Source: Sipunculus nudus (lineage: Eukaryota > Annelida > Sipuncula > Golfingiida > Sipunculidae). Taken from it: 64,000 nt of DNA. Below, piece after piece: positions 16,101 to 60,669 of the stretch. The stretch covers positions 57,979,676-58,043,675 of the forward strand of contig CM049316.1 in the NCBI GenBank assembly GCA_026874595.1, given 5' to 3'. The notes under the pieces are model-generated. The model was not told the origin of the DNA, did not search any database, and was given only the letters and a program-made list of their open reading frames with translations. Within the stretch, counting starts at the first letter, position 1, and every line of letters starts with the position of its first letter. The position numbers were made by a program, and so were the translations under genes.

Positions 16101-19100
16101 AAGGCTCCCCCCCCCCCCCCCTTCTTTCAGCCGTCGCAAACTTTTTAATGGATTTCAGTCCATTACTAAAGTTAAGTAAATAGAGCAAATATAGAGTATG
16201 CATCGACAACATTCATGCCAAATATAAACAACAGAAGGTTATTTGTCCGTGAAACATATTTTATATATTAATATGTGGATCTTTCTTGCGTTGTAATATC
16301 TGTGACGCTTGAGTGTGAATATAAACAGGAACTTATGCAACTGCTTCCTTGGAGAGTTTACGTGGTACAACTGTTTCCGAAATGTTGAAGTTGAAATGCA
16401 AGGTGGTAGCGCAGCGACACGTGTTGTGGTTCTTTCAACATCATGCAAAAGCATTACCTGGATGAATTGGGGGATTAACCATTATTGCATGCTGACATAA
16501 GAAATGAGTGCGAAGGGATTCAGAGTCCTGTTGCTCACATTTACTGACCCTGCATTTGGGTCAGCGACAGGGTCAAATATCAGTTGAAACATGCTTATAT
16601 CCGTCACTGACAGCAGAGTTTTAATCATATACACAATAGGCCTAAATCCTGTGTAGAGAATAACATGCAACGCAGGCATTCCTTTACCGAAGGCAGTTCG
16701 GCTGTTCTCAGAGCATGATATCCTCAACGGAATTTAGAAACCAGGAAAAATCACTCAGAATGATGTGTACGTTACCAATTATCTTTTTTCATACCAGCGA
16801 GGTCACTGCAGGGACAATAGCCTATAAAAGAGGTATAGCAGAGTGTCATACACAACGCGGTCCCAGAGAACATTGATGACAAAGGTGGACAGGATTCCTT
16901 TCATAAGCATTAGATCGAAATATCTACATGACAAGAAAAATCTACAAGATTGCAAAGTTTATTAATATTTCAAATGAGAAAATATCAAGTTACCTTCCTT
17001 GTGTTTAACGAAGTTAGGAAAAAAATGCATTCGATCCGTAAAATATCTAGAACCAGTATAATAATATCAATATATCGATATAAAATATCTTCTTTAGTTC
17101 CTCTTCAGGAATAATCAAGTTACCTTTTGTGGAGCGTATCGAAATCAGGAAACCGGAGCATAACAGGCTAGACATATTTAAGATGAACAGCATTTCCAAT
17201 TTAATATTGTTTTCTATCTCACTGAACGTCATGCAGTTATTTAATTTTACGTGTCTTCTGCTTGTTTCAGCATTGGTGTCAGTTTGAAGGTGTATGCAAG
17301 TCCTGGAATGAATCTTGTAGCCCAACTACTTTACCATCAGGATGTCAACCAGGACAGGTACATTTTGCTCTTTTACTGATTTTATTCAATACTGATGATC
17401 GGGACTTATTTCTATCTTTCTATTAACCAATTCCTTCAAACTAGATACCTATAATTAAACAAACGATCTTTTTCTTTGAATGAGTTTTCAACTAAAACTT
17501 CAAATTCATTTTTCTTTTCCAGTATTACTGTTATATGCAGAGAAGGTGCATACCTGACGGACATCCCTGCGGAACACCAACACCTACTGGAACAGTGTGC
17601 CCTGACGGAATGGTAAGAGAATATTTTATTATAGTTTCAGGTTTACTTATGTCTTGTTCTTTCGGTATTTGAAATGTTCACCGTGAATATCTCTCGAGTA
17701 ATATAGACAGATTAATTCAGTTGGCCATGTTGATATAATCAATAATCAGCAGTTGTCTGTTGAAAGGAAAATCTTCTGTACATTAGTGTATGTTGCAGGA
17801 ATGTTGACGTTATTATTATGTGCTATCACGGATTCTGTCATTTCAGGTGTTTTGTTTTGAAAATATGACCTGTATACAGGCCTACGGCAACTGCTCTACT
17901 CATAATGCCTCTTACTGTCCGGATGGTCAGGTGAGTGATTTACATGTCGTTCTCCTAGCATTTCATATGCGGGATAAGTTATAGAACATTCCTTTGTTTA
18001 GTGAAATCAGAGACAGTATTGGAAACAAATTTTCATTCACGACTATCGAGTTATTTAGGCCGTCTCCTCTTTCCCTGGATACATATGTTGTACCCTAACT
18101 AATCAGAAGATTACAGAGTTTGTAAGGTATATACTTAAAGTTCCTGGTAAACTGAACCTAGGCATCAGAAGAAAATTAACCATCTGCTATTCTAACGGTT
18201 TATAATTTCCTATATACTTTCTCAAATAATATTTCATGAAAGGTTAACCTTAATAGAGGTATAATCCCTGGTTCATCGTTTATTTTGATAAACCCATAGA
18301 CCTTTTCGCTCCAGCAATTGATATGAATAGAACAATGGGCAGTGGTTTGAACAACTTTTCAGTAAGGCTACATAGTCCATTAAAGATTCATCTTTACCTT
18401 TCCCCTGAGAAGTGCCAATTTCCAATGTGAAATTTTAAGATTCCTTCAAGTTGGAGAAAATTAAATGCATATTTTGAACGCAGGATACATATGTATTAGG
18501 GCATGAAATATCTAGAATAAAAAGCATTCTCGACTATTTTCGTATCGGCTTCCTTTCTAATAGCGTATGTACCTGTTCTTTCAGTATTGGTGTCAGTCTG
18601 AAGGCTTGTGCAAGTGGTCATATGAATCCTGTGGCCCCACTGCATCTCCCTCAGCATGTCCACCAGGACAGGTAAATTTAATTCCTCGGTCACTTTATGT
18701 TCAGCTGACTGAAAGTCACGTCAGTTCTGGTGACCAGGGTTTGTCCTTCGTGCGTTCAGCCCTCAAGTCTTTCGTTAACAGGAAAAATCCTGTGGAATAT
18801 AATGGAAACATTGAAACTGATGTTCACAGAGGTCCTCGTGTAATCTCTATGGAGTCGAAATTAAATATCCCGGTGACTCATACTTTTGCAGCTCCAACTT
18901 CTTCAAGTCAAAATCATGATTATCTTCACACTAAACATGAAGTGTTTTAGCCTATTTCGTCTGAGTATATAATTCGCATTATCATGTTTTCTTTTAAATA
19001 ATATGCGTGACAGGATCAAATCTGTTAGATATCAAAGCGTGAACCTATTTGAAATGAGGACATATCAAGTTACCTTTTCTTGAGCTAATCGACATCAGGA

Positions 19101-22100
19101 ACCCAGAGCGTTAGAGGCTAGACGTATTTTGAATGAACAGTATTGCCAATTGTCATTTCAGGTGTTTCCCTTGTCATCTATCACATTGAACGTCATGCTG
19201 TTATTTAATTTTACGTGTCTTTTGCTTGTTTCAGCAATGGTGTCAGTTTGAAGGTGTATGCAAGTCCTGGAATGAATCTTGTGGCCCCACTACTGCACCA
19301 TCAGGATGTCAACCAGGACAGGTACATTTCGCTCTTTTTACTGATTTTATTCGTCACTGATGATCGGGACTTATTTCTATCTTTCTATTAACCAATTCCT
19401 TCATACTAGATACCTATAATTAAACAAACACCTATTTCTTTGAACGAGTTTTCCACTAAAACTACACATTCATATTTCTTTTCCAGCATTACTGTTATAT
19501 GCAGAGAAGGTGCATACCTGACGGAGATCCCTGCGGAACACCAACACCTACTGGAACCGTGTGCCCTGACGGAATGGTAAGAGAATATTTTTTTAATAGT
19601 TTCATGTTTACTTATGGCTTGTCCTTACGATCTTTAAATTGTTCACTGGGAATATCTTTCAAGTACTGTAGACGGACGCATAAATCAGTAAGCAGCAGTT
19701 CTCTCCTGAAAGCAGAATACTCTTTACATTTGATTATCTTGCAGCAATGTTGTCATTATTATTATGTGCTATCACGGACTCTGTCATTTCAGGTGTTTTG
19801 TTTTGATAATATGACCTGTATACAGGCCAGCGTCAACTGCTCTACTCACAATGCCTCTTCCTGTGGGACTGGTCAGGTAAGTGCTTTATAAGCCGTTCTG
19901 ATAGCGTCTCAAATTCATGATAAGTTAAAGAATACTTTTACTTTGTTAATTGAAAATCAGAGGCAGTATTGGAAACAAATTTATCGAGTTATTTAGGCCG
20001 TCTCCTCTTTCCCTTGATACATATGTTGTACCCTAACTAATCAGAAGATCACAGAGTTTGTAAGGTATATACTTAAATTTCCTGGTAAACTGAACCTAGG
20101 CATCAGAAGAAAATTAACCATCTGCTATTCTAACGGTTTATAATTTCCTTTATACTTTCTCAAATAATATTTCATGAAAGGTTTACCTTAATACAGGTAT
20201 AATTCCTGGTTCATCGTTCATTTTGATAAACTCGCAGACCTTTTCGCTCCAACAATTGATATGAAAAGAACAATGGGGCAGTGGTTTGAACAACTTTTAC
20301 AGTAAGGCTACATAGTCCATTTAAGATTCATCTTTACCTTTCCCCTGAGAAGTGACAATTTCCAATGTGAAATTTTAAGATTCCTTCAAGTTGGAGAAAA
20401 TTAAATGCATATATTGAACGCAGGACACATATGCTTTAAGGCATGAAATATCTAAAATAAAAAGCATTCTCGACTATTTTCGTATCGGCTTCCTTTCTAA
20501 TAGCGTATGTACCTGTTCTTTCAGTATTGGTGTCAGTCTGAAGGCTTGTGCAAGTGGTCATATGAATCCTGTGGCCCCACTGCATCTCCCTCAGCATGTC
20601 CACCAGGACAGGTAAATTTAATTCCTCGGTCACTAATGTTCAGCTGACTGAAAGTCACGTCAGCTCTTGTGACCGGGGTTTGTCCTTCGTTCTTTCAGCC
20701 CTTAAGACTTTCGTTAACAGGATAAATCCTGTGGAATATAATGGAAACATTGAAACTTATGTTCAGAGAGGTCCTCGTGTAATCTCCATAGAGTCGAAAT
20801 TAAATATCCCTGTGACTCATACTTTTGCAGCTCCAACTTCTTCAAGTCAAAATCATGATTATCTTCACACTAAACATGAAGTGTTTTAGCCTATTTCGTC
20901 TGAATATATAATTCGCATTATCATGTTTTTTTTAATAATATGCGTGACAGGATCAAATCTGGTAGATATCAAAGCGTGAACCTATTTGAAATGAGGACAT
21001 ATCAAGTTACCTTTTCTTGAGCTTATCGACATCAGGAGCCCAGAGCGTTAAAGGCTAGACGTATTTAGAATGAACAGTATTGCCAATTTAGTATTGTTTT
21101 CCGTGTCATCTCACATTGCACGTCATGCTGTTATTTAACTTTACGTGTCTTCTGCTTGTTTCAGCAATGGTGTCAGATTGAAGGTGTATGCAAGTCCTGG
21201 AATGAATCTTGTGGCCCCACTACTGCACCATCAGGATGTCATCCAGGACAGGTACATTTCGCTCTTTTTACTGATTATATTCGTCACTGATGATCGGGAC
21301 TTATTTCTATCCTTCTATTAACCAATTCCTTCATACTAGAAACTTATAATTAAACAAACACCTATTTCTTTGAAGGAGTTTTCCATTAAAACTACACATT
21401 CATATTTATTTTCCAGTATTACTGTTATATGCAAAGAAGGTGCATACCTGACGGAGATCCCTGCGGAACACCAACACCTACTGGAACCGTGTGCCCTGAC
21501 GGAATGGTAAGAGAATATTTTTTTTATAGTTTCATGTTTACTTATGGCTTGTCCTTACGATCTTTAAATTGTTCACTGGGAATATCTTTCAAGTAATGTA
21601 GACGGACGCATAAATCAGTAAGCAGCAGTTCTCTCCTGAAAGCAGAATACTCTGTACATTTGATTATCTTGTAGCAATGTTGTCATTATTATTATGTGCT
21701 ATCACGGACTCTGTCATTTCAGGTGTTTTGTTTTGATAATAGGACCTGTATACAGGCCAGCGTCAACTGCTCTACTCACAATGCCTCTTCCTGTGGGACT
21801 GGTCAGGTAAGTGCTTTATAAGCCGTTCTGATAGCGTCTCAAATTCATGATAAGTTAAAGAATACTTTTACTTTGTTAATTGAAAATCAGAGACAGTATT
21901 GGAAACAAATTTATCGAGTTATTTAGGCCGTCTCCTCTTTCCCTTGATACATATGTTGTACCCTTACTAATCAGAAGATCACAGAGTTTGTAAGGTATAT
22001 ACTTAAAGTTCCTGGTAAACTGAACCTAGGCATTAGAAGAAAATTAACCATCTGCTATTCTAACGGTTTATAATTTCCTTTATACTTTCTCAAATAATAT

Positions 22101-25100
22101 TTCATGAAAGGTTTACCTTAATAGAGGTATAATCCCTGGTTCATCGTTCATTTTGCTAAACTCGCAGACATTTTTGCCTCAGCAATTGATATGAAAAGAA
22201 CAATGGGGCAGTGGTTTGAACAACTTTTACAGTAAGGCTACATAGTCCATTAATGATTCATCTTTACCTTTCCCCTGAGAAGTGCCAATTTCCAATGTGA
22301 AACTTTAAGATTCCTTCAAGTTGGAGAAAATAAAATGCATATATTGAACGCAGGACACATATGTTTTAGGGCATGAAATATCTAGAATAAAAAGCATTCT
22401 CGTCTATTTTCGTATCGGCTTCCTTTCTAATAGAGTATGTACCTGTTCTTTCAGTATTGGTGTCAGTCTGAAGGCTTGTGCAAGTGGTCATATGAATCCT
22501 GTGGCCCCACTGCATCTCCCTCAGCATGTCCACCAGGACAGGTAAATTTAATTCCTCGGTCACTAATGTTCAGCTGACTGAAAGTCACGTCAGCTCTTGT
22601 GACCGGGGTTTGTCCTTCGTTCGTTCAGCCCTTAAAACTTTCGTTAACAGGATAAATCCTGTGGAATATAATGGAAACATTGAAACTTATGTTCAGAGAG
22701 GTCCTCGTGTAATCTCCATAGAGTCGAAATTAAATATCCCTGTGACTCATTCTTTTGCAGCTCCAACTTCTTCAAGTCAAAATCATGATTATCTTCACAC
22801 TAAACATGAAGTGTTTTAGCCTATTTCGTCTGAATATATAATTCGCATTATCAAGTTTTTTTTTAAATAATATGCGTAACAGGATCAAATCTGGTAGACA
22901 TCAAAGCGTGAACCTATTTGAAATGAGGACATATCAAGTTACCTTTTCTTGGGCTTATCGACATCAGGAGCCCAGAGCGTTAAAGGCTAGACGTATTTAG
23001 AATGAACAGTATTGCCAATTGTCATTTCAGGTGTTTTCCGTGTCATCTCACATTGAACGTCATGCTGTTATTTAACTTTACGTGTCTTCTGCTTGTTTCA
23101 GCAATGGTGTCAGTTTGAAGGTGTATGCAAGTCCTGGAATGAATCTTGTGGCCCCACTACTGCACCATCAGGATGTCAACCAGGACAGGTACATTTCGCT
23201 CTTTTTACTGATTATATTCGTCACTGATGATCGGGACTTATTTCTATCCTTCTATTAACCAATTCCTTCATACTAGAAACTTATAATTAAACAAACACCT
23301 ATTTCTTTGAAGGAGTTTTCCACTAAAACTACACATTCATATTTCTTTTCCAGTATTACTGTTATATGCAGAGAAGGTGCATACCTGACGGAGATCCCTG
23401 CGGAACACCAACACCTACTGGAACCGTGTGCCCTGACGGAATGGTAAGAGAATATTTTTTTTTATAGTTTCATGTTTACTTATGGCTTGTCCTTACGATC
23501 TTTAAATTGTTCACTGGGAATATCTTTCAAGTAATGTAGACGGACGCATAAATCAGTAAGCAGCAGTTCTCTCCTGAAAGCAGAATACTCTTTAAATTGG
23601 ATTATCTTGTAGCAATGTTGTCATTATTATTATGTGCTATCACGGACTCTGTCATTTCAGGTGTTTTGTTTTGATAAAATGACCTGTATACAGGCCAGCG
23701 TCAACTGCTCTACTCACAATGCCTCTTCCTGTGGGACTGGTCAGGTAAGTGCTTTATAAGCCGTTCTGATAGCGTCTCAAATTCATGATAAGTTTATTCA
23801 TGATAAGAATATTTTTACTTTGTTAATTGAAAATCAGAGACAGTATTGGAAACAAATTTATCGAGTTATTTAGGCCGTCTCCTCTTTCCCTTGATACATA
23901 TGTTGTACCCTTACTAATCAGAAGATCACAGAGTTTGTAAGGCATATACTTAAAGTTCCTGGTAAACTGAACCTAGGCATCAGAAGAAAATTAACCATCT
24001 GCTATTCTAACGGTTTATAATTTCCTTTATACTTTCTCAAATAATATATATATGAAAGGTTTACCTTAATAGAGGTATAATCCCTGGTTCATCGTTCATT
24101 TTGCTAAACTCGCAGACATTTTTGCCTCAGCAATTGATATGAAAATAACAATGGGGCAGTGGTTTGAACAACTTTTAAAGTAAGGCTACATAGTCCATTA
24201 AAGATTCATCCTTACCTTTCCCCTGAGAAGTTCCAATTTCCAATGTGAAATTTTAAGATTCCTTCAAGTTGGAGAAAATTAAATGCATATTTTGAACGCA
24301 GGATACATATGTTTTAGGGCATGAAATATCTAGAATAAAAAGCATTCTCGACTATTTTCGTATCGGCTTCCTTTCTAATAGCGTATGTACCTGTTCTTTC
24401 AGTATTGGTGTCAGTCTGAAGGCTTGTGCAAGTGGTCATATGAATCCTGTGGCCCCACTGCATCTCCCTCAGCATGTCCACCAGGACAGGTAAATTTAAT
24501 TCCTCGGTCACTAATGTTCAGCTGACTGAAAGTCACGTCAGTTCTGGTGACCAGGGTTTGTCCTTCGTGCGTTCAGCCCTCAAGTCTTTCGTTAACAGGA
24601 AAAATCCTGTGGAATATAATGGAAACATTGAAACTGATGTTCAGAGAGGTCCTCGTGTAATCTCTATGGAGTCGAAATTAAATATCCCGGTGACTCATAC
24701 TTTTGCAGCTCCAACTTCTTCAAGTCAAAATCATGATTATCTTCACACTAAACATGAAGTGTTTTAGCCTATTTCGTCTGATTATATAATTCGCATTATC
24801 ATGTTTTCTTTTAAATAATATGCGTGACAGGATCAAATCTGTTAGATATCAAAGCGTGAACCTATTTGAAATGAGGACATATCAAGTTACCTTTTCTTGA
24901 GCTAATCGACATCAGGAACCCAGAGCGTTAGAGGCTAGACGTATTTTGAATGAACAGTATTGCCAATTGTCATTTCAGGTGTTTCCCGTGTCATCTATCA
25001 CATTGAACGTCATGCTGTTATTTAATTTTACGTGTCTTCTGCTTGTTTCAGCAATGGTGTCAGTTTGAAGGTGTATGCAAGTCCTGGAATGAATCTTGTG

Positions 25101-28100
25101 GCCCCACTACTGCACCATCAGGATGTCAAGCAGGACAGGTACATTTCGCTCTTTTTACTGATTTTATTCGTCACTGATGATCGGGACTTATTTCTATCTT
25201 TCTATTAACCAATTCCTTCATACTAGATACCTATAATTAAACAAACACCTATTTCTTTGAACGAGTTTTCCACTTAAACTACACATTCATATTTCTTTTC
25301 CAGCATTACTGTTATATGCAGAGAAGGTGCATACCTGACGGAGATCCCTGCGGAACACCAACACCTACTGGAACCGTGTGCCCTGACGGAATGGTAAGAT
25401 AATATTTTTTTTATAGTTTCATGTTTACTTATGGCTTGTCCTTACGATCTTTAAATTGTTCACTGGGAATATCTTTCAAGTACTGTAGACGGACGCATAA
25501 ATCAGTAAGCAGCAGTTCTCTCCTGAAAGCAGAATACTCTTTACATTTGATTATCTTGCAGCAATGTTGTCATTATTATTATGTGCTATCACGGACTCTG
25601 TCATTTCAGGTGTTTTGTTTTGATAATATGACCTGTATACAGGCCAGCGTCAACTGCTCTACTCACAATGCCTCTTCCTGTGGGACTGGTCAGGTAAGTG
25701 CTTTATAAGCCGTTCTGATAGCGTCTCAAATTCAAGATAAGTTAAAGAATACTTTTACTTTGTTAATTGAAAATCAGAGGCAGTATTGGAAACAAATTTA
25801 TCGAGTTATTCAGGCCGTCTCCTCTTTCTCTTGATACATATGAGTGATTTACATGTCGTTCTCCTAGCATTTCATATGCGGGATAAGTTATAGAACATTC
25901 CTTTGTTTAGTGAAATCAGAGACAGTATTGGAAACAAATTTTCATTCACGACTATCGAGTTATTTAGGCCGTCTCCTCTTTCCCTGGATACATGTTGTAC
26001 CCTAACTAATCAGAAGATCACAGAGTTTGTAAGGTATATACTTAAAGTTCCTGGTAAACTGAACCTAGGCATCAGAAGAAAATTAACCATCTGCTATTCT
26101 AACGGTTTATAATTTCCTTTATACTTTCTCAAATAATATTTCATGAAAGGTTTACCTTAATAGAGGTATAATTCCTGGTTCATCGTTCATTTTGATAAAC
26201 TCGCAGACCTTTTCGCTCCAGCAATTGATATGAAAAGAACAATGGGGCAGTGGTTTGAAAAACTTTTACAGTTAGGCTACATAGTCCATTAAAGATTCAT
26301 CTTTACCTTTCCCCTGAGAAGTGCCAATTTCCAATGTGAAACTTTAAGATTCCTTCAAGTTGGAGAAAATAAAATGCATATATTGAACGCAGGACACATA
26401 TGTTTTAGGGCATGAAATATCTAAAATAAAAAGCATTCTCGTCTATTTTCGTATCGGCTTCCTTTCTAATAGAGTTTGTACCTGTTCTTTCAGTATTGGT
26501 GTCAGTCTGAAGGCTTGTGCAAGTGGTCATATGAATCCTGTGGCCCCACTGCATCTCCCTCAGCATGTCCACCAGGACAGGTAAATTTAATTCCTCGGTC
26601 ACTAATGTTCAGCTGACTGAAAGTCACGTCAGCTCTTGTGACCGGGGTTTGTCCTTCGTTCGTTCAGCCCTTAAGACTTTCGTTAACAGGATAAATCCTG
26701 TGGAATATAATGGAAACATTGAAACTTATGTTCAGAGAGGTCCTCGTGTAATCTCCATAGAGTCGAAATTAAATATCCCGGTGACTCATACTTTTGCAGC
26801 TCCAACTTCTTCAAGTCAAAATCATGATTATCTTCACACTAAACATGAAGTGTTTTAGCCTATTTCGTCTGAATATATAATTCGCATTATCTTTTTTTTA
26901 AATAATATGCGTTACAGGATCAAATCTGGTAGATATCATAGCGTGAACCTATTTGAAATGAGGACATATCAAGTTACATTTTCTTGAGCTTATCGACATC
27001 AGGAGCCCAGAGCGTTAAAGGCTAGACGTATTTAGAATGAACAGTATTGCCAATTGTCATTTCAGGTGTTTTCCGTGTCATCTCACATTGAACGTCATGC
27101 TGTTATTTAACTTTACGTGTCTTCTGCTTGTTTCAGCAATGGTGTCAGTTTGAAGGTGTATGCAAGTCCTGGAAGGAATCTTGTGGCCCCACTACTGCAG
27201 CATCAGGATGTCAACCAGGACAGGTACAATTCGCTCTTTTTAATGATTTTATTCGTCACTGATGATCGGGACTTATTTCTATCTTTCTATTAACCAATTC
27301 CTTCATACTAGATGCCTATAATTAAAGAAACACCTATTTCTTTAAACGAGTTTTCCACTAAAACTACACATTCATATTTCTTTTTCAGCATTACTGTTAT
27401 ATGCAGAGAAGGTGCATACCTGACGGAGATCCCTGCGGAACACCAACACCTAATGGAACCGTGTGGCCTGACGGAATGGTAAGAGAATATATTTTTATAG
27501 TTTCATGTTTACTTATGGCTTGTCCTTACGATCTTTAAATTGTTCACTGGGAATATCTTTCAAGTAATGTAGACGGACGCATAAATCAGTAAGCAGCAGT
27601 TCTCTCCTGAAAGCAGAATACTCTTTACATTTGATTATCTTGCAGCAATGTTGTCATTATTATTATGTGCTAACACAGACTCTGTCATTTCAGGTGTTTT
27701 GTTTTGATAAGTTGACCTCTATACAGGCCAGCGTCAACTGCTCTACTCACAATGCCTCTTCCTGTGGGACTGGTCAGGTAAGTGCTTTATAAGCCGTTCT
27801 GATAGCGTCTCAAATTCATGATAAGTTAAAGAATACTTTTACTTTGTTAATTGAAAATCAGAGGCAGTATTGGAAACAAATTTATCGAGTTATTTAGGCC
27901 GTCTCCTCTTTCCCTTGATACATATGTTGTACCCTAACTAATCAGAAGATCACAGAGTTTGTAAGGTATATACTTAAAGTTCCTGGTAAACTGAACCTAG
28001 GCATCAGAAGAAAATTAACCATCTGCTATTCTAACGGTTTATAATTTCCTTTATACTTTCTCAAATAATATTTCATGAAAGGTTTACCTTAATAGAGGTA

Positions 28101-31100
28101 TAATTCCTGGTTCATCGTTCATTTTGATAAACTCGCAGACCTTTTCGCTCCAGCAATTGATATGAAAAGAACAATGGGGCAGTGGTTTGAAAAACTTTTA
28201 CAGTAAGGCTACATAGTCATTTAAAGATTCATCTTTACCTTTCCCCTGAGAAGTGCCAATTTCCAATGTGAAACTATAAGATTCCTTCAAGTTGGAGAAA
28301 ATAAAATGCATATATTGAACGCAGGACACATATGTTTTAGGGCATGAAATATCTAGAATAAAAAGCATTCTCGTCTTTTTTCGTATCGGCTTCCTTTCTA
28401 ATAGAGTATGTACCTGTTCTTTCAGTATTGGTGTCAGTCTGAAGGCTTGTGCAAGTGGTCATATGAATCCTGTGGCCCCACTGCATCTCCCTCAGCATGT
28501 CCACCAGGACAGGTAAATTTAATTCCTCGGTCACTAATGTTCAGCTGACTGAAAGTCACGTCAGCTCTTGTGACCGGGGTTTGTCCTTCGTTCTTTCAGC
28601 CCTTAAGACTTTCGTTAACAGGATAAATCCTGTGGAATATAATGGAAACATTGAAACTTATGTTCAGAGAGGTCCTCGTGTAATCTCCATAGAGTCGAAA
28701 TTAAATATCCCGGTGACCCATACTTTTGCAGCTCCAACTTCTTCAAGTCATAATCATGATTATCTTCACACTAAACATGAAGTGTTTTAGCCTATTTCGT
28801 CTGAATATATAATTCGCATTATCATGTTTTTTTTTTTTAATAATATGCGTGACAGGATCAAATCTGGTAGATATCAAAGCGTGAACCTATTTGAAATGAG
28901 GACATATCAAGTTACATTTTCTTGAGCTTATCGACATCAGGAGCCCAGAGCGTTAAAGGCTAGACGTATTTAGAATGAACAGTATTGCCAATTGTCATTT
29001 CAGGTGTTTTCCGTGTCATCTCACATTGAACGTCATGCTGTTATTTAACTTTACGTGTCTTCTGCTTGTTTCAGCAATGGTGTCAGATTGAAGGTGTATG
29101 CAAGTCCTGGAATGAATCTTGTGGCCCCACTACTGCACCATCAGGATGTCAACCAGGACAGGTACATTTCGCTCTTTTTACTGATTATATTCGTCACTGA
29201 TGATCGGGACTTATTTCTATCCTTCTATTAACCAATTCCTTCATACTAGAAACTTATAATTAAACAAACACCTATTTCTTTGAAGGAGTTTTCCACTAAA
29301 ACTACACATTCATATTTCTTTTCCAGTATTACTGTTATATGCAGAGAAGATGCATACCTGACAGAGATCCCTGCGGAACACCAACACCTACTGGAACCGT
29401 GTGCCCTGACGGAATGGTAAGAGAATATTTTTTTTATAGTTTCATGTTTACTTATGGCTTGTCCTTACGATCTTTAAATTGTTCACTGGGAATATCTCTC
29501 AAGTAATGTAGACGGACGCATAAATCAGTAAGCAGCAGTTCTCTCCTGAAAGCAGAATACTCTTTACATTTGATTATCTTGCAGCAATGTGGTCATTATT
29601 ATTATGTGCTATCACGGACTCTGTCATTTCAGGTGTTTTGTTTTGATAATATGACCTGTATACAGGCCAGCGTCAACTGCTCTACTAACAATGCCTCTTC
29701 CTGTGGGACTGGTCAGGTAAGTGCTTTATAAGCCGTTCTGATAGCGTCTCAAATTCATGATAAGTTAAAGAATACTTTTACTTTGTTAATTGAAAATCAG
29801 AGACAGTATTGGAAACAAATTTATCGAGTTATTTAGGCCGTCTCCTCTTTCCCTTGATACATATGTTGTACCCTTACTAATCAGAAGATCACAGAGTTTG
29901 TAAGGTATATACTTAAAGTTCCTGGTAAACTGAACCTAGGCATCAGAAGAAAATTAACCATCTGCTATTCTAACGGTTTATAATTTCCTTTATACTTTCT
30001 CAAATAATATTTCATGTAAGGTTTACCTTAATAGAGGTATAATCCCTGGTTCATCGTTCATTTTGCTAAACTCGCAGACATTTTTGCCTCAGCAATTGAT
30101 ATGAAAAGAACAATGGGGCAGTGGTTTGAACAACTTTTACAGTAAGGCTACATAGTCCATTAAATATTCATCTTTACCTTTCCCCTGAGAAGTGCCAATT
30201 TCCAATGTGAAATTTTAAGATTCCTTCAAGTTGGAGAAAATTAAATGCATATATTGAACGCAGGACACATATACTTTAGGGCATGAAATATCTAGAATAA
30301 AAAGCATTCTCGACTATTTTCGTATCGGCTTCCTTTCTAATAGCGTATGTACCTGTTCTTTCAGTATTGGTGTCAGTCTGAAGGCTTGTGCAAGTGGTTA
30401 TATGAATCCTGTGGCCCCACTGCATCTCCCTCAGCATGTCCACCAGGACAGGTAAATTTAATTCCTCGGTCACTAATGTTCAGCTGACTGAAAGTCACGT
30501 CTGCTCTTGTGACCGGGGTTTGTCCTTCGTTCTTTCAGCCCTTAAGACTTTCGTTAACAGGATAAATCCTGTGGAATATAATGGAAACATTGAAACTTAT
30601 GTTCAGAGAGGTCCTCGTGTAATCTCCATAGAGTCGAAATTAAATATCCCGGTGACTCATACTTTTGCAGCTCCAACTTCTTCAAGTCAAAATCATGATT
30701 ATCTTCACACTAAACATGAAGTGTTTTAGCCTATTTCGTCTGAATATATAATTCGCATTATAATGTTTTTTTTTTAATAATATGCGTGACAGGATCAAAT
30801 CTGGTAGATATCAAAGCGTGAACCTATTTGAAATGAGGACATATCAAGTTACCTTTTCTTGAGCTTATCGACATCAGGAGCCCAGAGCGTTAAAGGCTAG
30901 ACGTATTTAGAATGAACAGTATTGCCAATTTAGTATTGTTTTCCGTGTCATCTCACATTGCACGTCATGCTGTTATTTAACTTTACGTGTTTTCTGCTTG
31001 TTTCAGCAATGGTGTCAGATTGAAGGTGTATGCAAGTCCTGGAATGAATCTTGTGGCCCCACTACTGCACTATCAGGATGTCAACCAGGACAGGTACATT

Positions 31101-34100
31101 TCGCTCTTTTTACTGATTATATTCGTCACTGATGATCGGGACTTATTTCTATACTTCTATTAACCAATTCCTTCATACTAGAAACTTATAATTAAACAAA
31201 CACCTATTTCTTTGAAGGAGTTTTCCACTAAAACTACACATTCATATTTCTTTTCCAGTATTACTGTTATATGCAGAGAAGGTGCATACCTGACGGAGAT
31301 CCCTGCGGAACACCAACACCTACTGGAACCGTGTGCCCTGACGGAATGGTAAGAGAATATTTTTTTTATAGTTTCATGTTTACTTATGGCTTGTCCTTAC
31401 GATCTTTAAATTGTTCACTGGGAATATCTTTCAAGTAATGTAGACGGACGCATAAATCAGTAAGCAGCAGTTCTCTCCTGAAAGCAGAATACTCTTTACA
31501 TTTGATTATCTTGCAGCAATGTTGTCATTATTATTATGTGCTATCACGGACTCTGTCATTTCAGGTGTTTTGTTTTGATAATATGACCTGTATACAGGCC
31601 AGCGTCAACTGCTCTACTCACAATGCCTCTTCCTGTGGGACTGGTCAGGTAAGTGCTTTATAAGCCTATCTGATAGCGTCTCAAATTCATGATAAGTTAA
31701 AGAATACTTTTACTTTGTTAATTGAAAATCACAGGCAGTATTGGAAACAAATTTATCGAGTTATTTAGGCCGTCTCCTCTTTCCCTTGATACATATGATG
31801 TACCCTTACTAATCAGAAGATCACAGAGTTTGTAAGGTATATACTTAAAGTTCCTGGTAAACTGAACCTAGGCATCAGAAGAAAATTAACCATCTGCTAT
31901 TCTAACGGTTTATAATTTCCTTTATACTTTCTCAAATAATATTTCATGAAAGGTTTACCTTAATAGAGGTATAATCCCTGGTTCATCGTTCATTTTGCTA
32001 AACTCGCAGACATTTTTGCCTCAGCAATTGATATGAAAATAACAATGGGGCAGTGGTTTGAACAACTTTTACAGTAAGGCTACATAGTCCATTAAAGATT
32101 CATCTTTACCTTTCCCCTGAGAAGTGCCAATTTCCAATGTGAAATTTTAAGATTCCTTCAAGTTGGAGAAAATTAAATGCATATATTGAACGCAGGACTC
32201 ATATGCTTTAGGGCATGAAATATCTAGAATAAAAAGCATTCTCGACTATTTTCGTATCGGCTTCCTTTCTAATAGCGTATGTACCTGTTCTTTCAGTATT
32301 GGTGTCAGTCTGAAGGCTTGTGCAAGTGGTCATATGAATCCTGTGGCCCCACTGCATCTCTCTCAGCATGTCCACCAGGACAGGTAAATTTAATTCCTCG
32401 GTCACTAATGTTCAGCTGACTGAAAGTCACGTCAGCTCTTGTGACCGGGGTTTGTCCTTCGTTCTTTCAGCCCTTAAGACTTTCGTTAACAGGATAAATC
32501 CTGTGGAATATAATGGAAACATTGAAACTTATGTTCAGAGAGGTCCTCGTGTAATCTCCATAGAGTCGAAATTAAATATCCCGGTGACTCATACTTTTGC
32601 AGCTCCAACTTCTTCAAGTCAAAATCATGATTATCTTTACACTAAACATGAAGTGTTTTAGCCTATTTTGTCTGAATATATAATTCGCATTATCATGTTT
32701 TTTTTTTTAATAATATGCGTGACAGGATCAAATCTGGTAGATATCAAAGCGTGAACCTATTTGAAATGAGGACATATCAAGTTACCTTTTCTTGAGCTTA
32801 TCGACATCAGGAGCCCAGAGCGTTAAAGGCTAGACGTATTTAGAATGAACAGTATTGCCAATTTAGTATTGTTTTCCGTGTCATCTCACATTGCTCGTCA
32901 TGCTGTTATTTAACTTTACGTGTCTTCTGCTTGTTTCAGCAATGGTGTCAGATTGAAGGTGTATGCAAGTCCTGGAATGAATCTTGTGGCCCCACTACTG
33001 CACCATCAGGATGTCAACCAGGACAGGTACATTTCGCTCTTTTTACTGATTATATTCGTCACTGATGATCGGGACTTATTTCTATCCTTCTATTAACCAA
33101 TTCCTTCATACTAGAAACTTATAATTAAACAAACACCTATTTCTTTGAAGGAGTTTTCCACTAAAACTACACATTCATATTTCTTTTCCAGCATTACTGT
33201 TATATGCAGAGAAGATGCATACCTGACGGAGATCCCTGCGGAACACCAACACCTACTGGAACCGTGTGCCCTGACGGAATGGTAAGAGAATATTTTTTTT
33301 ATAGTTTCATGTTTACTTATGGCTTGTCCTTACGATCTTTAAATTGTTCACTGGGAATATCTTTCAAGTAATGTAGACGGACGCATTATTCAGTAAGCAG
33401 CAGTTCTCTCCTGAAAGCAGAATACTCTTTACATTTGATTATCTTGCAGCAATGTTGTCATTATTATTAAGTGCTATCACGGACTCTGTCATTTCAGGTG
33501 TTTTGTTTTGATAATATGACCTGTATACAGGCCAGCGTCAACTGCTCTACTCACAATGCCTCTTCCTGTGGGACTGGTCAGGTAAGTGCTTTATAAGCCG
33601 TTCTGATAGCGTCTCAAATTCATGATAAGTTAAAGAATACTTTTACTTTGTTAATTGAAAATCAGAGGCAGTATTGGAAACAAATTTATCGAGCTATTTA
33701 GGCCGTCTCCTCTTTCCCTTGATACATATGTTGTACCCTTACTAATCAGAAGATCACAGAGTTTGTAAGGTATATACTTAAAGTTCCTGGTAAACTGAAC
33801 CTAGGGATCAGAAGAAAATTAACCATCTGCTATTCTAACGGTTTATAATTTCCTTTATACTTTCTCAAATAATATTTCATGAAAGGTTTACCTTAATAGA
33901 GGTATAATCCCTGGTTCATCGTTCATTTTGCTAAACTCGCAGACATTTTTGCCTCAGCAATTGATATAAAAATAACAATGGGGCAGTGGTTTGAACAACT
34001 TTTACAGTAAGGCTACATAGTCCATTAAAGATTCATCTTTACCTTTCCCCTGAGAAGTGCCAATTCCCAATGTGAAATTTTAAGATTCCTTCAAGTTGGA

Positions 34101-37100
34101 GAAAATTAAATGCATATATTGAACGCAGGACTCATATGCTTTAGGGCATGAAATATCTAGAATAAAAAGCATTCTCGACTATTTTCGTATCGGCTTCCTT
34201 TCTAATAGCGTATGTACCTGTTCTTTCAGTATTGGTGTCAGTCTGAAGGCTTGTGCAAGTGGTCATATGAATCCTGTGGCCCCACTGCATCTCCCTCAGC
34301 ATGTCCACCAGGACAGGTAAATTTAATTCCTCGGTCACTAATGTTCAGCTGACTGAAAGTCACGTCAGCTCTTGTGACCGGGGTTTGTCCTTCGTTCTTT
34401 CAGCCCTTAAGACTTTCGTTAACAGGATAAATCCTGTGGAATATAATGGAAACATTGAAACTTATGTTCAGAGAGGTCCTCGTGTAATCTCCATAGAGTC
34501 GAAATTAAATATCCCGGTGACTCATACTTTTGCAGCTCCAACTTCTTCAAGTCAAAATCATGATTATCTTTACACTAAACATGAAGTGTTTTAGCCTATT
34601 TTGTCTGAATATATAATTCGCATTATCATGTTTTTTTTTTAATAATATGCGTGACAGGATCAAATCTGGTAGATATCAAAGCGTGAACCTATTTGAAATG
34701 AGGACATATCAAGTTACCTTTTCTTGAGCTTATCGACATCAGGAGCCCAGAGCGTTAAAGGCTAGACGTATTTAGAATGAACAGTATTGCCAATTTAGTA
34801 TTGTTTTCCGTGTCATCTCACATTGCACGTCATGCTGTTATTTAACTTTACGTGTCTTCTGCTTGTTTCAGCAATGGTGTCAGATTGAAGGTGTATGCAA
34901 GTCCTGGAATGAATCTTGTGGCCCCACTACTGCACCATCAGGATGTCAACCAGGACAGGTACATTTCGCTCTTTTTACTGATTATATTCGTCACTGATGA
35001 TCGGGACTTATTTCTATCCTTCTATTAACCAATTCCTTCATACTAGAAACTTATAATTAAACAAACACCTATTTCTTTGAAGGAGTTTTCCACTAAAACT
35101 ACACATTCATATTTCTTTTCCAGCATTACTGTTATATGCAGAGAAGATGCATACCTGACGGAGATCCCTGCGGAACACCAACACCTACTGGAACCGTGTG
35201 CCCTGACGGAATGGTAAGAGAATATTTTTTTTTATAGTTTCATGTTTACTTATGGCTTGTCCTTACGATCTTTAAATTGTTCACTGGGAATATCTTTCAA
35301 GTAATGTAGACGGACGCATTATTCAGTAAGCAGCAGTTCTCTCCTGAAAGCAGAATACTCTTTACATTTGATTATCTTGCAGCAATGTTGTCATTATTAT
35401 TATGTGCTATCACGGACTCTGTCATTTCAGGTGTTTTGTTTTGATAATATGACCTGTATACAGGCCAGCGTCAACTGCTCTACTCACAATGCCTCTTCCT
35501 GTGGGACTGGTCAGGTAAGTGCTTTATAAGCCGTTCTGATAGCGTCTCAAATTCATGATAAGTTAAAGAATACTTTTACTTTGTTAATTGAAAATCAGAG
35601 GCAGTATTGGAAACAAATTTATCGAGCTATTTAGGCCGTCTCCTCTTTCCCTTGATACATATGTTGTACCCTTACTAATCAGAAGATCACAGAGTTTGTA
35701 AGGTATATACTTAAAGTTCCTGGTAAACTGAACCTAGGGATCAGAAGAAAATTAACCATCTGCTATTCTAACGGTTTATAATTTCCTTTATACTTTCTCA
35801 AATAATATTTCATGAAAGGTTTACCTTAATAGAGGTATAATCCCTGGTTCATCGTTCATTTTGCTAAACTCGCAGACATTTTTGCCTCAGCAATTGATAT
35901 AAAAATAACAATGGGGCAGTGGTTTGAACAACTTTTACAGTAAGGCTACATAGTCCATTAAAGATTCATCTTTACCTTTCCCCTGAGAAGTGCCAATTCC
36001 CAATGTGAAATTTTAAGATTCCTTCAAGTTGGAGAAAATTAAATGCATATATTGAACGCAGGACTCATATGCTTTAGGGCATGAAATATCTAGAATAAAA
36101 AGCATTCTCGACTATTTTCGTATCGGCTTCCTTTCTAATAGCGTATGTACCTGTTCTTTCAGTATTGGTGTCAGTCTGAAGGCTTGTGCAAGTGGTCATA
36201 TGAATCCTGTGGCCCCACTGCATCTCCCTCAGCATGTCAACCAGGACAGGTAAATTTAATTCCTCGGTCACTAATGTTCAGCTGACTGAAAGTCACGTCA
36301 GCTCTTGTGACCGGGGTTTGTCCTTCGTTCTTTCAGCCCTTAAGACTTTCGTTAACAGGATAAATCCTGTGGAATATAATGGAAACATTGAAACTTATGT
36401 TCAGAGAGGTCCTCGTGTAATCTCCATAGAGTCGAAATTAAATATCCCGGTGACTCATTCTTTTGCAGCTCCAACTTCTTCAAGTCAAAATCATGATTAT
36501 CTTCACACTAAACATGAAGTGTTTTAGCCTATTTCGTCTGAATATATAATTCGCATTATCATGTTTTTTTTTTAATAATATGCGTGACAGGATCAAATCT
36601 GGTAGATATCAAAGCGTGAACCTATTTGAAATGAGGACATATCAAGTTACCTTTTCTTGAGCTTATCGACATCAGGAGCCCAGAGCGTTAAAGGCTAGAC
36701 GTATTTAGAATGAACAGTATTGCCAATTTAGTATTGTTTTCCGTGTCATCTCACATTGCACGTCATGCTGTTATTTAACTTTACGTGTTTTCTGCTTGTT
36801 TCAGCAATGGTGTCAGATTGAAGGTGTATGCAAGTCCTGGAATGAATCTTGTGGCCCCACTACTGCACCATCAGGATGTCAACCAGGACAGGTACATTTC
36901 GCTCTTTTTACTGATTATATTCGTCACTGATGATCGGGACTTATTTCTATCCTTCTATTAACCAATTCCTTCATACTAGAAACTTATAATTAAACAAACA
37001 CCTATTTCTTTGAAGGAGTTTTCCACTAAAACTACACATTCATATTTCTTTTCCAGTATTACTGTTATATGCAGAGAAGGTGCATACCTGACGGAGATCC

Positions 37101-40100
37101 CTGCGGAACACCAACACCTACTGGAACCGTGTGCCCTGACGGAATGGTAAGAGAATATTTTTTTTATAGTTTCATGTTTACTTATGGCTTGTCCTTACGA
37201 TCTTTAAATTGTTCACTGGGAATATCTTTCAAGTAATGTAGACTGACGCATAAATCAGTAAGCAGCAGTTCTCTCCTGAAAGCAGAATACTCTTTACATT
37301 TGATTATCTTGCAGCAATGTTGTCATTATTATTATGTGCTATCACGGACTCTGTCATTTCAGGTGTTTTGTTTTGATAATATGACCTGTATACAGGCCAG
37401 CGTCAACTGCTCTACTCACAATGCCTCTTCCTGTGGGACTGGTCAGGTGAGTGCTTTATAAGCCGTTCTGATAGCGTCTCAAATTCATGATAAGTTAAAG
37501 AATACTTTTACTTTGTTAATTGAAAATCAGAGACAGTATTGGAAACAAATTTATCGAGTTATTTAGGCCGTCTCCTCTTTCCCTTGATACATATGTTGTA
37601 CCCTTACTAATCAGAAGATCACAGAGTTTGTAAGGTATATACTTAAAGTTCCTGGTAAACTGAACCTAGGCATCAGAAGAAAATTAACCATCTGCTATTC
37701 TAACGGTTTATAATTTCCTTTATACTTTCTCAAATAATATTTCATGAAAGGTTTACCTTAATAGAGGTATAATCCCTGGTTCATCGTTCATTTTGCCAAA
37801 CTCGCAGACATTTTTGCCTCAGCAATTGATATGAAAAGAACAATGGGGCAGTGGTTTGAACAACTTTTACAGTAAGGCTACATAGTCCATTAATGATTCA
37901 TCTTTACCTTTCCCCTGAGAAGTGCCAATTTCCAATGTGAAACTTTAAGATTCCTTCAAGTTGGAGAAAATAAAATGCATATATTGAACGCAGGACACAT
38001 ATGTTTTAGGGCATGAAATATCTAGAATAAAAAGCATTCTCGTCTATTTTCGTATCGGCTTCCTTTCTAATAGAGTATGTACCTGTTCTTTCAGTATTGG
38101 TGTCAGTCTGAAGGCTTGTGCAAGTGGTCATATGAATCCTGTGGCCCCACTGCATCTCCCTCAGCATGTCCACCAGGACAGGTAAATTTGATTCCTCGGT
38201 CACTAATGTTCAGCTGACTGAAAGTCACGTCAGCTCTTGTGACCGGGGTTTGTCCTTCGTTCGTTTAGCCCTTAAAACTTTCGTTAACAGGATAAATCCT
38301 GTGGAATATAATGGAAACATTGAAACTTATGTTCAGAGAGGTCCTCGTGTAATCTCCATAGAGTCGAAATTAAATATCCCTGTGACTCTCATACTTTTGC
38401 AGCTCCAACTTCTTCAAGTCAAAATCATGATTATCTTCACACTAAACATGAAGTGTTTTAGCCTATTTCGTCTGAATATATAATTCGCATTATCAAGTTT
38501 TTTTTAAAATAATATGCGTAACAGGATCAAATCTGGTAGATATCAAAGCGTGAACCTATTTGAAATGAAGACATATCAAGTTACCTTTTCTTGAGCTTAT
38601 CGACATCAGGAGCCCAGAGCGTTAAAGGCTAGACGTATTTAGAATGAACAGTATTGCCAATTTAGTATTGTTTTCCGTGTCATCTCACATTGAACGTCAT
38701 GCTGTTATTTAACTTTACGTGTCTTCTGCTTGTTTCAGCAATGGTGTCAGTTTGAAGGTGTATGCAAGTCCTGGAATGAATCTTGTGGCCCCACTACTGC
38801 ACCATCAGGATGTCAACCAGGACAGGTACATTTCGCTCTTTTTACTGATTATATTCGTCACTAATGATCGGGACTTATTTCTATCCTTCTATTAACCAAT
38901 TCCTTCATACTAGAAACTTATAATTAAACAAACACCTATTTCTTTGAAGGAGTTTTCCACTAAAACTACACATTCATATTTCTTTTCCAGTATTACTGTT
39001 ATATGCAGAGAAGGTGCATACCTGACGGAGATCCCTGCGGAACACCAACACCTACTGGAACCGTGTGCCCTGACGGAATGGTAAGAGAATATTTTTTTTT
39101 ATAGTTTCATGTGTACTTATGGCTTGTCCTTACGATCTTTAAATTGTTCACTGGGAATATCTTTCAAGTAATGTAGACGGACGCATAAATCAGTAAGCAG
39201 CAGTTCTCTCCTGAAAGCAGAATACTCTTTACATTTGATTATCTTGTAGCAATGTTGTCATTATTATTATGTGCTATCACGGACTCTGTGATTTCAGGTT
39301 TTTTGTTTTGATAATATGACCTGTATACAGGCCAGCGTCAACTGCTCTACTCACAATGCCTCTTCCTGTGGGACTGGTCAGGTAAGTGCTTCATAAGCCG
39401 TTCTGTTAGCGTCTCAACTTCATGATAAGTTAAAGAATACTTTTACTTTGTTAATTGAAAATCAGAGGCAGTATTGGAAACAAATTTATCGAGTTATTTA
39501 GGCCGTCTCCTCTTTCCCTTGATACATATGTTGTACCCTAACTAATCAGAAGATCACAGAGTTTGTAAGGTATATACTTAAAGTTCCTGGTAAACTGAAT
39601 CTAGGCATCAGAAGAAAATTAACCATCCGCTATTCTAACGGTTTATAATTTCCTTTATACTTTCTCAAATAATATTTCATGAAAGGTTTACCTTAATAGA
39701 GGTATAATCCCAGGTTCATCGTTCATTTTGATAAACTCGCAGACCTTTTCGCTCCAGCAATTGATATGAAAAGAACAATGTGGCAGTGGTTTGAACAACT
39801 TTTACAGTAAGGCTACATAGTCCATTAAAGATTCATCTTTACCTTTCCCCTGAGAAGTGCCAATTTCCAATGTGAAATTTTAAGATTCCTTCAAGTTGGA
39901 GAAAATTAAATGCATATATTGAACGCAGGACACATATGCTTTAGGGCATGAAATATCTAGAATAAAAAGCATTCTCGACTATTTTCGTATCGGCTTCCTT
40001 TCTAATAGCGTTTGTACCTGTTCTTTCAGTATTGGTGTCAGTCTGAAGGCTTGTGCAAGTGGTCATATGAATCCTGTGGCCCCACTGCATCTCCCTCAGC

Positions 40101-43100
40101 ATGTCCACCAGGACAGGTAAATTTAATTCCTCGGTCACTAATGTTCAGCTGACTGAAAGTCACGTCAGCTCTTGTGACCGGGGTTTGTCCTTCGTTCTTT
40201 CAGCTCTTAAGACTTCGTTAACAGGATAAATCCTGTGGAATATAATGGAAACATTGAAACTTATGTTCAGAGAGGTCCTCGTGTAATCCCCATAGAGTCG
40301 AAATTAAATATCCCGGTGACTCATACTTTTGAGCCTCCAACTTCTTCAAGTCAAAATCATGATTATCTTCACACTAAACATGAAGTGTTTAAGCCTATTT
40401 CGTCTGAATATATAATTCGCATTGTTATGTTTTTTCAAATAATATGCGTGACAGGATCAAATCTGGTAGATATCAAAGCGTGAACCTATTTGAAATGGGG
40501 ACATATCAAGTTACCTTTTCTTGAGCTTATCGACATCAGGAGCCCAGAGCGTTAAAGTCTAGACGTATTTAGAATAAACAGTATTGCCAAATTAGTATTG
40601 TTTTCCGTGTCATCTCACATTGAACGTCATGCTGTTATTTAACTTTACGTGTCTTCTGCTTGTTTCAGCAATGGTGTCAGTTTGAAGGTGTATGCAAGTC
40701 CTGGAATGAATCTTGTAGCCCAACTACTGCACCATCAAGATGTCAACCAGGACAGGTACATTTCGCTCTTTTTACTGATTTTATTCGTCACTGATGATCG
40801 GGACTTATTTCTATCTTTCTATTAACCAATTCCTTCATACTAGATCTCTATATTTAAACAAACACCTGTTTCTTTGAACGAGTTTTCCACTAAAACTACA
40901 CATTCATATTTCTTTTCCAGTATTACTGTTATATGCAGCGAAGGTGCATACCTGACGGACATCCCTGCGGAACACCAACACCTACTGGAACCGTGTGCCC
41001 TGACGGAATGGTAAGAGAATATTTTTTTATAAATTCATGTTTACTTATGGCTTGCCTTACCCCTTAAATTGTTTACTGGGAATATCTTTGAGTAATGTAG
41101 ACGGACGCATAAATCAGTAAGCAGCAGTACTCTCCTGAAAGCAGAATACTCTTTACATTTGATTATCTTGCAGCAATGTTGTCATTATTATGTGCTATCA
41201 CGGACTCTGTCATTTCAGGTGTTTTGTTTTGAAAATATGACCTGCATACAGGCCAGCGTCAACTGCTCTATTCACAATGCCTCTTCCTGTGGGACTAGTC
41301 AGGTTAGTGCTTTATAAACCGTTCTGCTAGCATCTCAAATTCATGATAAGTTAAAGAATACTTTTACTTTGTTAATTGAAAATCAGAGGCAGCATTGAAA
41401 ACAAATTGGCATTCGCAACTATCGCGTTATTTAGGCCGTCTCCTCTTTTCCTGGATACATGTGTTGTACTCTAACTGCTCAGAAGAAAATTGAGTTTGTT
41501 TGTGAGCTTTATACTTTAAAGTTCCTGGTAATCTGAACCTGGGCATCTGCAGAAAATTATCCGTCCGCTAATCAAACGTTTTTTTAATATCATATATACT
41601 TTTTCGAATGATATTTCATGACAGCGTCACCTATATAGAGATATAATCCTGCGGTTATCGTGCTTTTTGATTAACCCGGAGACTTTGTCGCTGAAGCAAA
41701 CGATATAAACATAACAATGGGGCAGTGGTTTGAACCATTTTTACAGTCAGACTAAATAGTTCATTTCAAAAATTCATTTTTACCTTTCCCCTGAGAACTT
41801 TTAATTGCAAATATGAAATTTTAAGATTCCTTCAGGTTGGGCACATACGTTAATGCACATATTGAGTTCAGGTCACATATGTTTTAGGGTTTGAAATATC
41901 TAGAATAAAAAACAAACTTTTTTCCGCTTCCTGTCTGATTACGTTTGTACCTGTTCTTTCAGTATTGGTGTGGATATGAAGGCTTGTGCAAGTGGTCATA
42001 TGAATCCTGTGGCCCCACTGCATCTCCTTCAGCATGTCCACCAGGACAGGTAAATTTTACTCTTTGGACACTATAAGATCAACTGACTGAAAGTCGTTTC
42101 AACTGGGGTGATAACCCTCTTTCCTTCAAGAGTTCGGCCCTTCGGTCGTTCGTTAACAGGATAAATTTTGTCGAATATATACTTGAAAATCGAAACTGAT
42201 GTTCAGAGAGGTATATCCCGGTGACTCAGTATTTTTGCAGCTCCAACTTCTCCAAGTTACAATCATAATTATCTTCACCCTGAACGTGAAATATGTTTAA
42301 GCCCATATCCTCTGAATATATGTTTCACAAAACTGATAGATATCAAAGTGTAATCCTGTTTCAAATGCGGAAGAATCAAATCTGTCAGGCTGCAAAATAT
42401 GAAGGTTTATCCTTCGTGAATTTTGCCCTTCGGTCTTTCGTTAACAGGATATATTCTGTAAAATATAGTCAAAATATTGCAAAGAGTGAACATATTTCAA
42501 ATTAGGAATTATCAAGTTACCTTTTCTGTTGCTTATCGAAATCAGGAAACCAGCGTGTTTCATGCTAGAAGTATTTAGAATGAACAGTATATCCACATTT
42601 GTTCCACTTTACGTGTCATCTATCTTACTGGACATCATGCTGCTTTTAATTAACTTTACATGCCTTCTGTTTGTTTCAGTATTGGTGTCAGTTTGAAGGT
42701 TTGTGCAAGTTCTCGAATGAATCTTGTGGCTCCACTGCTTCTCAATCAAGATGCCCATCGGGACAGGTAACGTGTACACTCGCTACTCAGTTTTGTGTCA
42801 CTAACGTTTGTGCATTGTTTCAACCCTTCCTTCAAATCTTTATCAACCGACACACAAATATTCAATATTTTCAGAAAAAGGAGGTGTTGAAGATTGGACG
42901 GGGTTTATAGTAGCGATCATCTGTCTTAGTGGGTTTGCATTTCGTTTGTATTGACTTAGCCCTTTTCGTTTTTGGTGTCACATTTAAAGAATGCAAAAGG
43001 TTACGCATGGATCACACAGCCCAAGGGAATTTTCCTAAACACGTGCAACTGGACAGATATTTTCTTACTTATGCTGCTGTATTGGGAATGTTCATGATTT

Positions 43101-53829: not shown

Positions 53830-53882
<53 letters not shown>

Positions 53883-60622: not shown

Positions 60623-60669
<47 letters not shown>

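Follow-up and report, generated by a model that had tools for sequence, protein, structure and literature searches.

Within a 64,000-nucleotide stretch of the genome of the annelid Sipunculus nudus (GenBank assembly GCA_026874595.1, contig CM049316.1, forward-strand positions 57,979,676 to 58,043,675; this whole stretch is termed the window below, and positions are counted from its first letter), a gene of the REJ family contains a long tandem array of closely similar units, each of which carries four small exons together with all of their introns. The explanation that is favored here, and that can be held with considerable confidence, is that a four-module cassette was duplicated in tandem within this gene, that its copies exchange sequence with one another in a manner that is neutral to the reading frame, and that the resulting product is rich in disulfides toward its N-terminus. 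As a part of that same explanation, and with the same confidence, the window appears to hold approximately four-fifths of a gene that is approximately 80 kb in length, comprises approximately 110 exons and encodes a large REJ-family protein.

The original prediction placed a 13-fold amplification of a four-exon cassette at positions 17271 to 42049. When the 1,932-bp unit at 30001-31932 (U07) was searched against the window by self-BLAST, a head-to-tail series of copies was recovered, and the 52 exons that these copies carry were all found to be intact, which establishes that the array exists. Its parts are as follows:

17107 to 42769, plus strand: tract homologous to the 1.93-kb unit (self-BLAST), approximately 13.3 unit lengths, with degenerate edges
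17271 to 17930, plus strand: left edge (unit 0), with exons E2 (17271-17357), E3 (17523-17612) and E4 (17847-17930)
18223 to 41602, plus strand: twelve complete units, U01-U12 (self-BLAST and unit alignment), starting at 18223, 20161, 22091, 24038, 26130, 28062, 30001, 31933, 33866, 35799, 37731 and 39666
30365 to 30451, plus strand: E1 of the reference unit U07, 29 residues, four cysteines, phase 0-0
31007 to 31093, plus strand: E2 of U07, 29 residues
31259 to 31348, plus strand: E3 of U07, 30 residues
31565 to 31648, plus strand: E4 of U07, 28 residues
41963 to 42049, plus strand: right-edge E1, which is exon number 52

The count of 13 units holds when the exons are read in the rotated register E2-E3-E4-E1; in the register E1 to E4, only 12 units are complete. 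These units are 1930-1947 bp in length, with the exception of U04 (2092 bp), which harbors a 152-bp intronic insert located 3' of its last exon. As had been predicted, each of the 12 consists of four phase 0-0 exons and all of their introns and contributes 116 residues; in every one the exon sizes are 87, 87, 90 and 84 nt (29 + 29 + 30 + 28 residues), the AG and GT borders are intact, and neither an indel nor a stop is present. An alignment of the 12 units contains 20 gap places, all of them intronic, and none of the 48 exons displays an indel. The entire array comprises 4,524 nt of exon sequence, or 1,508 codons (in agreement with an expected length of about 1,500 residues), with no stop codon, AG/GT borders at 52 of 52 exons, 206 cysteines and 50 N-glycosylation motifs; a single unit supplies 16 cysteines and approximately four such motifs. 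Within a unit, DNA identity between the E1 and E2 regions amounts to 78%, a likeness that reflects an older duplication of the module. All 13 scored matches to a 141-bp intronic fragment of the repeat in the 1.43-Gb assembly, and all 13 to exon E3, fall in the array; the counts themselves are lower bounds, and as far as these searches show the array would be a single locus.

Pairwise differences between units range from 0.3 to 3.9% among U01-U11 and from 5.0 to 6.3% for U12, while the adjacent units U08 and U09 differ by 0.26%. The edges are more divergent (the left edge is approximately 86% and the right edge approximately 79% identical to U07 by BLAST, and the introns of unit 0 differ from those of U07 at 109 of 823 sites, or 13.2%), and are older than the core units. 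A four-gamete test on informative sites with two states (71 in all) found incompatibility in 639 of the 2,485 pairs that they form; the incompatible fraction was 6.5% for sites separated by less than 100 bp and approximately 21% for those 100-700 bp apart, as compared to 43% between 700 and 1200 bp and 34% at greater distances. In addition, the nearest relative of a unit switches between its quarters in 11 of the 12 units (with ties broken by name), such that the successive quarters of U11 are closest to U03, U02, U03 and U01. The units are mosaics, and their composition fits exchange between units by both gene conversion and crossover. In the abalone egg-coat protein VERL, an example of concerted evolution, the core repeats are homogenized, and the present array would be a candidate for the same process: core copies are more alike than the edges, and exchange between copies accompanies that likeness.

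According to the favored explanation, the N-terminal half of the protein would consist of small modules, most of them with four cysteines and each encoded by its own phase 0-0 exon. A single cassette of four modules, which measures 1.93 kb when its introns are counted, would have been duplicated in tandem to yield the present 13 copies, and misaligned homologous exchange, in the form of unequal crossover and gene conversion, would keep those copies alike and could alter their number, with the near-identical introns serving as ample substrate. Because the exons are phase-symmetric, the gain or loss of a whole unit would add or remove 116 residues without a frameshift. The product would most likely be a long, disulfide-rich and glycosylated N-terminal stalk, or else a multivalent binding arm, situated before the REJ region; the 52 exons would presumably all be joined in the mRNA, and the number of copies may change between individuals. 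A different account, in which the array is a long, old and static repeat whose likeness is preserved by selection on the protein and not by exchange, is very hard to credit: while the exons are indeed somewhat more conserved than the introns, the introns are alike as well (with a mean difference of 3.3%), synonymous and nonsynonymous sites are conserved to the same degree, and the units are mosaics.

An assembly artefact, through which a small number of genuine units came to be multiplied or one haplotype was appended to the other, is somewhat less far-fetched than a static repeat, and is nevertheless improbable. The array is known from one assembly, the similarity of U08 to U09 is what such an artefact could produce, and two pairs of best partners, U02/U10 and U03/U11, share an offset of eight units. 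All pairs among the 12 units differ, however, and the longest exact repeat within the array extends for 835 bp, so that reads of several kilobases could place the copies. Joined haplotypes furthermore predict one constant offset, whereas best partners are found at offsets of 1, 2, 3 and 8, and two other pairs that lie eight units apart, U01/U09 (3.5%) and U04/U12 (6.3%), are not close. Finally, no copy of the unit is reported on another contig among the assembly matches to the 141-bp piece and to E3, and the edges are older than the core.

Variable sites among the 12 units are less frequent in exons (30 of 348) than in introns (212 of 1584; Fisher p 0.015), and the same holds between unit 0 and U07 (19 of 261 exonic against 109 of 823 intronic sites; p 0.008), with both p values being rough since the sites are not independent. 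Comparisons between older module copies, of 87 nt each, give ratios of nonsynonymous to synonymous change (dN/dS) of 0.46 for E1 against E2 and 0.42 for the right-edge exon at 42680 against E1, which hint at constraint between those copies.

Several other observations weigh against the favored explanation. Among the 12 units the proportion of nonsynonymous differences (pN, 0.018) is not lower than that of synonymous differences (pS, 0.016; introns, 0.033), and codon variants number 25 nonsynonymous and 6 synonymous for 267 and 81 sites, respectively, as would be expected by chance (binomial p 0.83). The dN/dS ratio is 1.60 for unit 0 against U07 (19 changes, of which 16 are nonsynonymous and 3 synonymous), 0.90 for U12 against U07 (12 changes) and 0.86 for the right edge against U07 (23 changes). 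Two of the 192 cysteines of the twelve complete units have been lost, both of them in U05. When U12 is set aside, similarity falls off weakly with distance: intron difference rises from 2.65% between neighbors to approximately 5% at ten units, but a Mantel test of difference against distance gives r 0.36 (p 0.0075) with U12 and r 0.22 (p 0.089) without it. The proposal of unequal crossover, which was part of the original prediction, is supported in part: the mosaic units, the near-identical pair U08/U09 and the divergent edges fit crossover together with conversion, and the distance trend is partly due to U12. The assembly also contains bacterial contigs, although the window itself lies on a contig of 79 Mb.

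The similarity of pN to pS gives no indication that recent amino-acid changes are strongly constrained, and it argues neither for nor against function; the young array is intact, and its recent amino-acid changes look nearly neutral. The same similarity, which suggests weak constraint on single copies, has a bearing on the possibility that the array is real and yet lies mostly outside the mature protein, its exons being skipped or alternatively chosen. Phase symmetry lets every exon be skipped without a frameshift, and the following feature is also of the kind that such a possibility would accommodate:

27389 to 27777, plus strand: E3 and E4 of U05 with two lost cysteines (fourth cysteine of E3 to tryptophan, second cysteine of E4 to serine)

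This possibility deserves to be kept in mind but is considered unlikely, given that splice-site pairs are intact at all 52 exons, that 48 exons are free of indels and stops whereas the accompanying introns hold 20 gap places, and that exons are less variable than introns. If the modules interlock, each extending from the final cysteine of an exon into the exon that follows, the two cysteines missing from U05 could have been disulfide partners across the border between E3 and E4, a suggestion that is drawn from one unit.

The assignment of the array to the interior of one gene, as originally proposed, is borne out by a phase-consistent chain of exons that passes through it. The chain was produced by dynamic programming and contained 121 exons, of which 11 were removed manually because they derived from repeats or did not fit the frame; five exons were trimmed, and one (73665-73952) was added. 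The cleaned model comprises 111 exons that encode 4,433 residues, corresponding to an estimated 500 kDa or so, with the array accounting for about a third of the protein. It is phase-consistent except at its first exon, because the upstream partner of that exon is missing, and it is approximate, being without the start exon, much of a serine/threonine-rich exon and the cytoplasmic end. The membership of the gene in the REJ family, also predicted, was confirmed by a match of the spliced model to the Pfam REJ domain (PF02010) with an E-value of 6.6e-36 and a score of 124.3 bits against a cut-off of 25, the best stretch of which spans profile positions 55-417 of 452; the exon at 62666-62887 alone scores 44.6 bits. 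Further REJ-domain matches were found in the assembly on contigs C2, C4, C5, C6, C9 and C13. The remaining features of the gene within the window are:

1136 to 1236, plus strand: leftmost exon recognized (by comparison to a sister gene), hydrophobic and signal-peptide-like by eye
7186 to 15481, plus strand: fourteen module exons that precede the array and belong to two further types (PYPCDGAC..., VFCFETMGC...), aligned copies of which are 76-91% identical
42680 to 46429, plus strand: six diverged exons of the module type, with starts at 42680, 43444 (six cysteines), 43827, 44312, 45852 and 46381; those at 44312 and 46381 are short, with uncertain borders
47328 to 47609, plus strand: exon carrying a WAP domain (frame scan, E 3e-6) preceded by the end of the serine/threonine-rich stretch; it may begin further left, within a frame that is open from 46766
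48118 to 58466, plus strand: exons shared with the sister gene; TIG match (0.0042) below cut-off
60262 to 64000, plus strand: 5' portion of the exons for the REJ domain, which runs past the window to approximately 68 kb (window numbering)

The start codon must belong to an exon still further upstream, to the left of 1136. The upstream module exons form an older, decayed array, and the gene has thus expanded different module cassettes at different times; in that region, between 10495 and 15501, copies of two other four-cysteine exon types that are 76-91% identical occur at offsets of 1.3-3.0 kb. At 47051-47310, a 21-bp coding tandem repeat of 12.4 copies encodes a serine/threonine-rich, TPEESQT-like stretch that probably belongs to the same gene as the array. 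No Pfam family exceeded its cut-off for the exons at 48118-58466.

Beyond the window (in window numbering), a single hydrophobic stretch was recognized by eye at approximately 79.9 kb, and the sister gene contains one that resembles it; the protein is probably held by one membrane helix. A GPS-like motif scored 16.1 bits against a cut-off of 22.5 (E 0.017) and was unlisted at E-values up to 0.1 in the scan of the spliced model; matches to PKD_4 and K319L-like_PKD were likewise below cut-off, and no PLAT/LH2 domain was listed in family scans of the parts up to 80032. Both PKD repeats and PLAT/LH2 domains are common among REJ/PKD1 proteins without being present in all of them. Tandem repeats of approximately 332 and 342 bp occupy presumed introns at approximately 68850-70206 and 75911-77926, respectively, and repeats of similar period are present to the left of the window as well.

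A tandem sister gene lies downstream, at approximately 89-152 kb in window numbering. Its C-terminal exons match those of the array-bearing gene, and exons conserved between the two were traced from 1136 to approximately 80032 (the exon at 74301-74416, noted in connection with the GPS-like motif, is 87.5% identical). For a 131-residue exon characteristic of the pair, the assembly yields two matches, and these are the two genes themselves. When the two genes were compared, no 1.93-kb cassette was found in the sister, which instead carries module exons of other types, including 26-residue modules that are 41-46% identical to E1 or E3. One exon region, 61449-61663 (129837-130051 in the sister gene), is 96.7% identical in DNA sequence as compared to 74-90% for other aligned exon regions, and likely reflects gene conversion between the paralogues.

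Translations of the four-cysteine modules gave no Pfam match over cut-off (whole-frame scans covered positions 42001-62000 of the plus strand), and LDL-receptor class A was absent among module matches at E-values up to 5 (the filters remove most matches above approximately 0.1). A profile of 12 modules matched complement C5a among solved structures with an E-value of 0.00012. The matched stretch of C5a is rich in cysteines and the profile has only 30 positions, and the match was therefore rejected as a coincidence of cysteine spacing; an F-box-like match (E 0.0012, under its cut-off) was set aside for the modules as a similar coincidence.

In a separate observation on the assembly, nine near-equal-scoring COX1 frames of 577-578 residues were noted on eight contigs, and the contigs flagged as bacterial are C60, C61, C62, C66, C72, C74, C75, C89 and C123. 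The COX1 frame of C60, the only one that was read, is of bacterial type, and a scan of bacterial and archaeal genomes revealed no close relative, with 58% identity at best among the 80 loci kept of 582. C123 carries a run of genes that we take to resemble a cbb3-type oxidase. These contigs could possibly represent symbionts or contaminants.

Among known systems, the closest working analogue is the KIV-2 array of human LPA, the lipoprotein(a) gene, and the closest reproductive analogue VERL. As described in one account (PMC11201333), each KIV-2 unit spans approximately 5.6 kb and contains two exons of 160 and 182 bp, and up to 40 repeats make up as much as 70% of the coding sequence. In both systems a multi-exon unit with its introns is repeated in tandem inside one gene with the frame preserved, a large share of the coding sequence is involved, the unit encodes a similar number of residues (approximately 114, from 342 nt, as compared to 116), and the core is flanked by related copies (kringles in LPA, related units here). 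Unlike KIV-2, the present array packs four exons, each a four-cysteine module, into a 1.93-kb unit, is found in 13 copies in a gene of the REJ family and is known from one assembly. The same account names NEB (with a unit of more than 10 kb), DMBT1, FLG, SPDYE3 and UBC as human genes with coding variable-number tandem repeats; their proteins and repeat types are other than those described here. VERL, which contains 23 ZP-N domains according to a review whose main text does not use the term REJ (PMC8830517), shares an internal expansion of domain repeats, but the domain is a different one and VERL is an egg-coat ZP protein. The family of sea urchin SpREJ and PKD1, whose members have 1-11 transmembrane segments (PMC1934368), shares the REJ domain, while a GPS-like motif in the present gene scores below cut-off; in contrast to that family, no C-type lectin, EGF or PLAT domain was listed in the scanned parts of the present gene, which has four-cysteine modules, a WAP domain and a serine/threonine-rich stretch. 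Nothing in the examined passages of that source refers to an array within a gene, and listings of the open PMC literature yielded no report of an array of this kind in a REJ-family gene. A REJ-domain protein is also found in coral skeleton (PMC4890752), and so REJ-domain proteins are not restricted to gametes and a role in recognition should not be assumed.

The kind of array is already known from LPA KIV-2 and VERL; the present example is located in a REJ-family gene and built from a four-cysteine module without a Pfam match over cut-off. A bolder extension of the favored explanation, that a recognition protein with modules interlocked across exon borders varies between individuals in its reach or valency by whole blocks of 116 residues and 16 cysteines, is speculative and on balance doubtful. 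Loci that carry arrays of this kind may readily collapse or be misjoined when genomes are assembled and genes modeled. Intragenic multi-exon arrays that change protein length by whole units are known above all from human LPA; the Sipunculus locus, with an array-less sister gene adjacent to it, would allow a test of whether the length of a REJ-family ectodomain varies between individuals, and would offer a second natural system for asking whether protein length is itself under selection.

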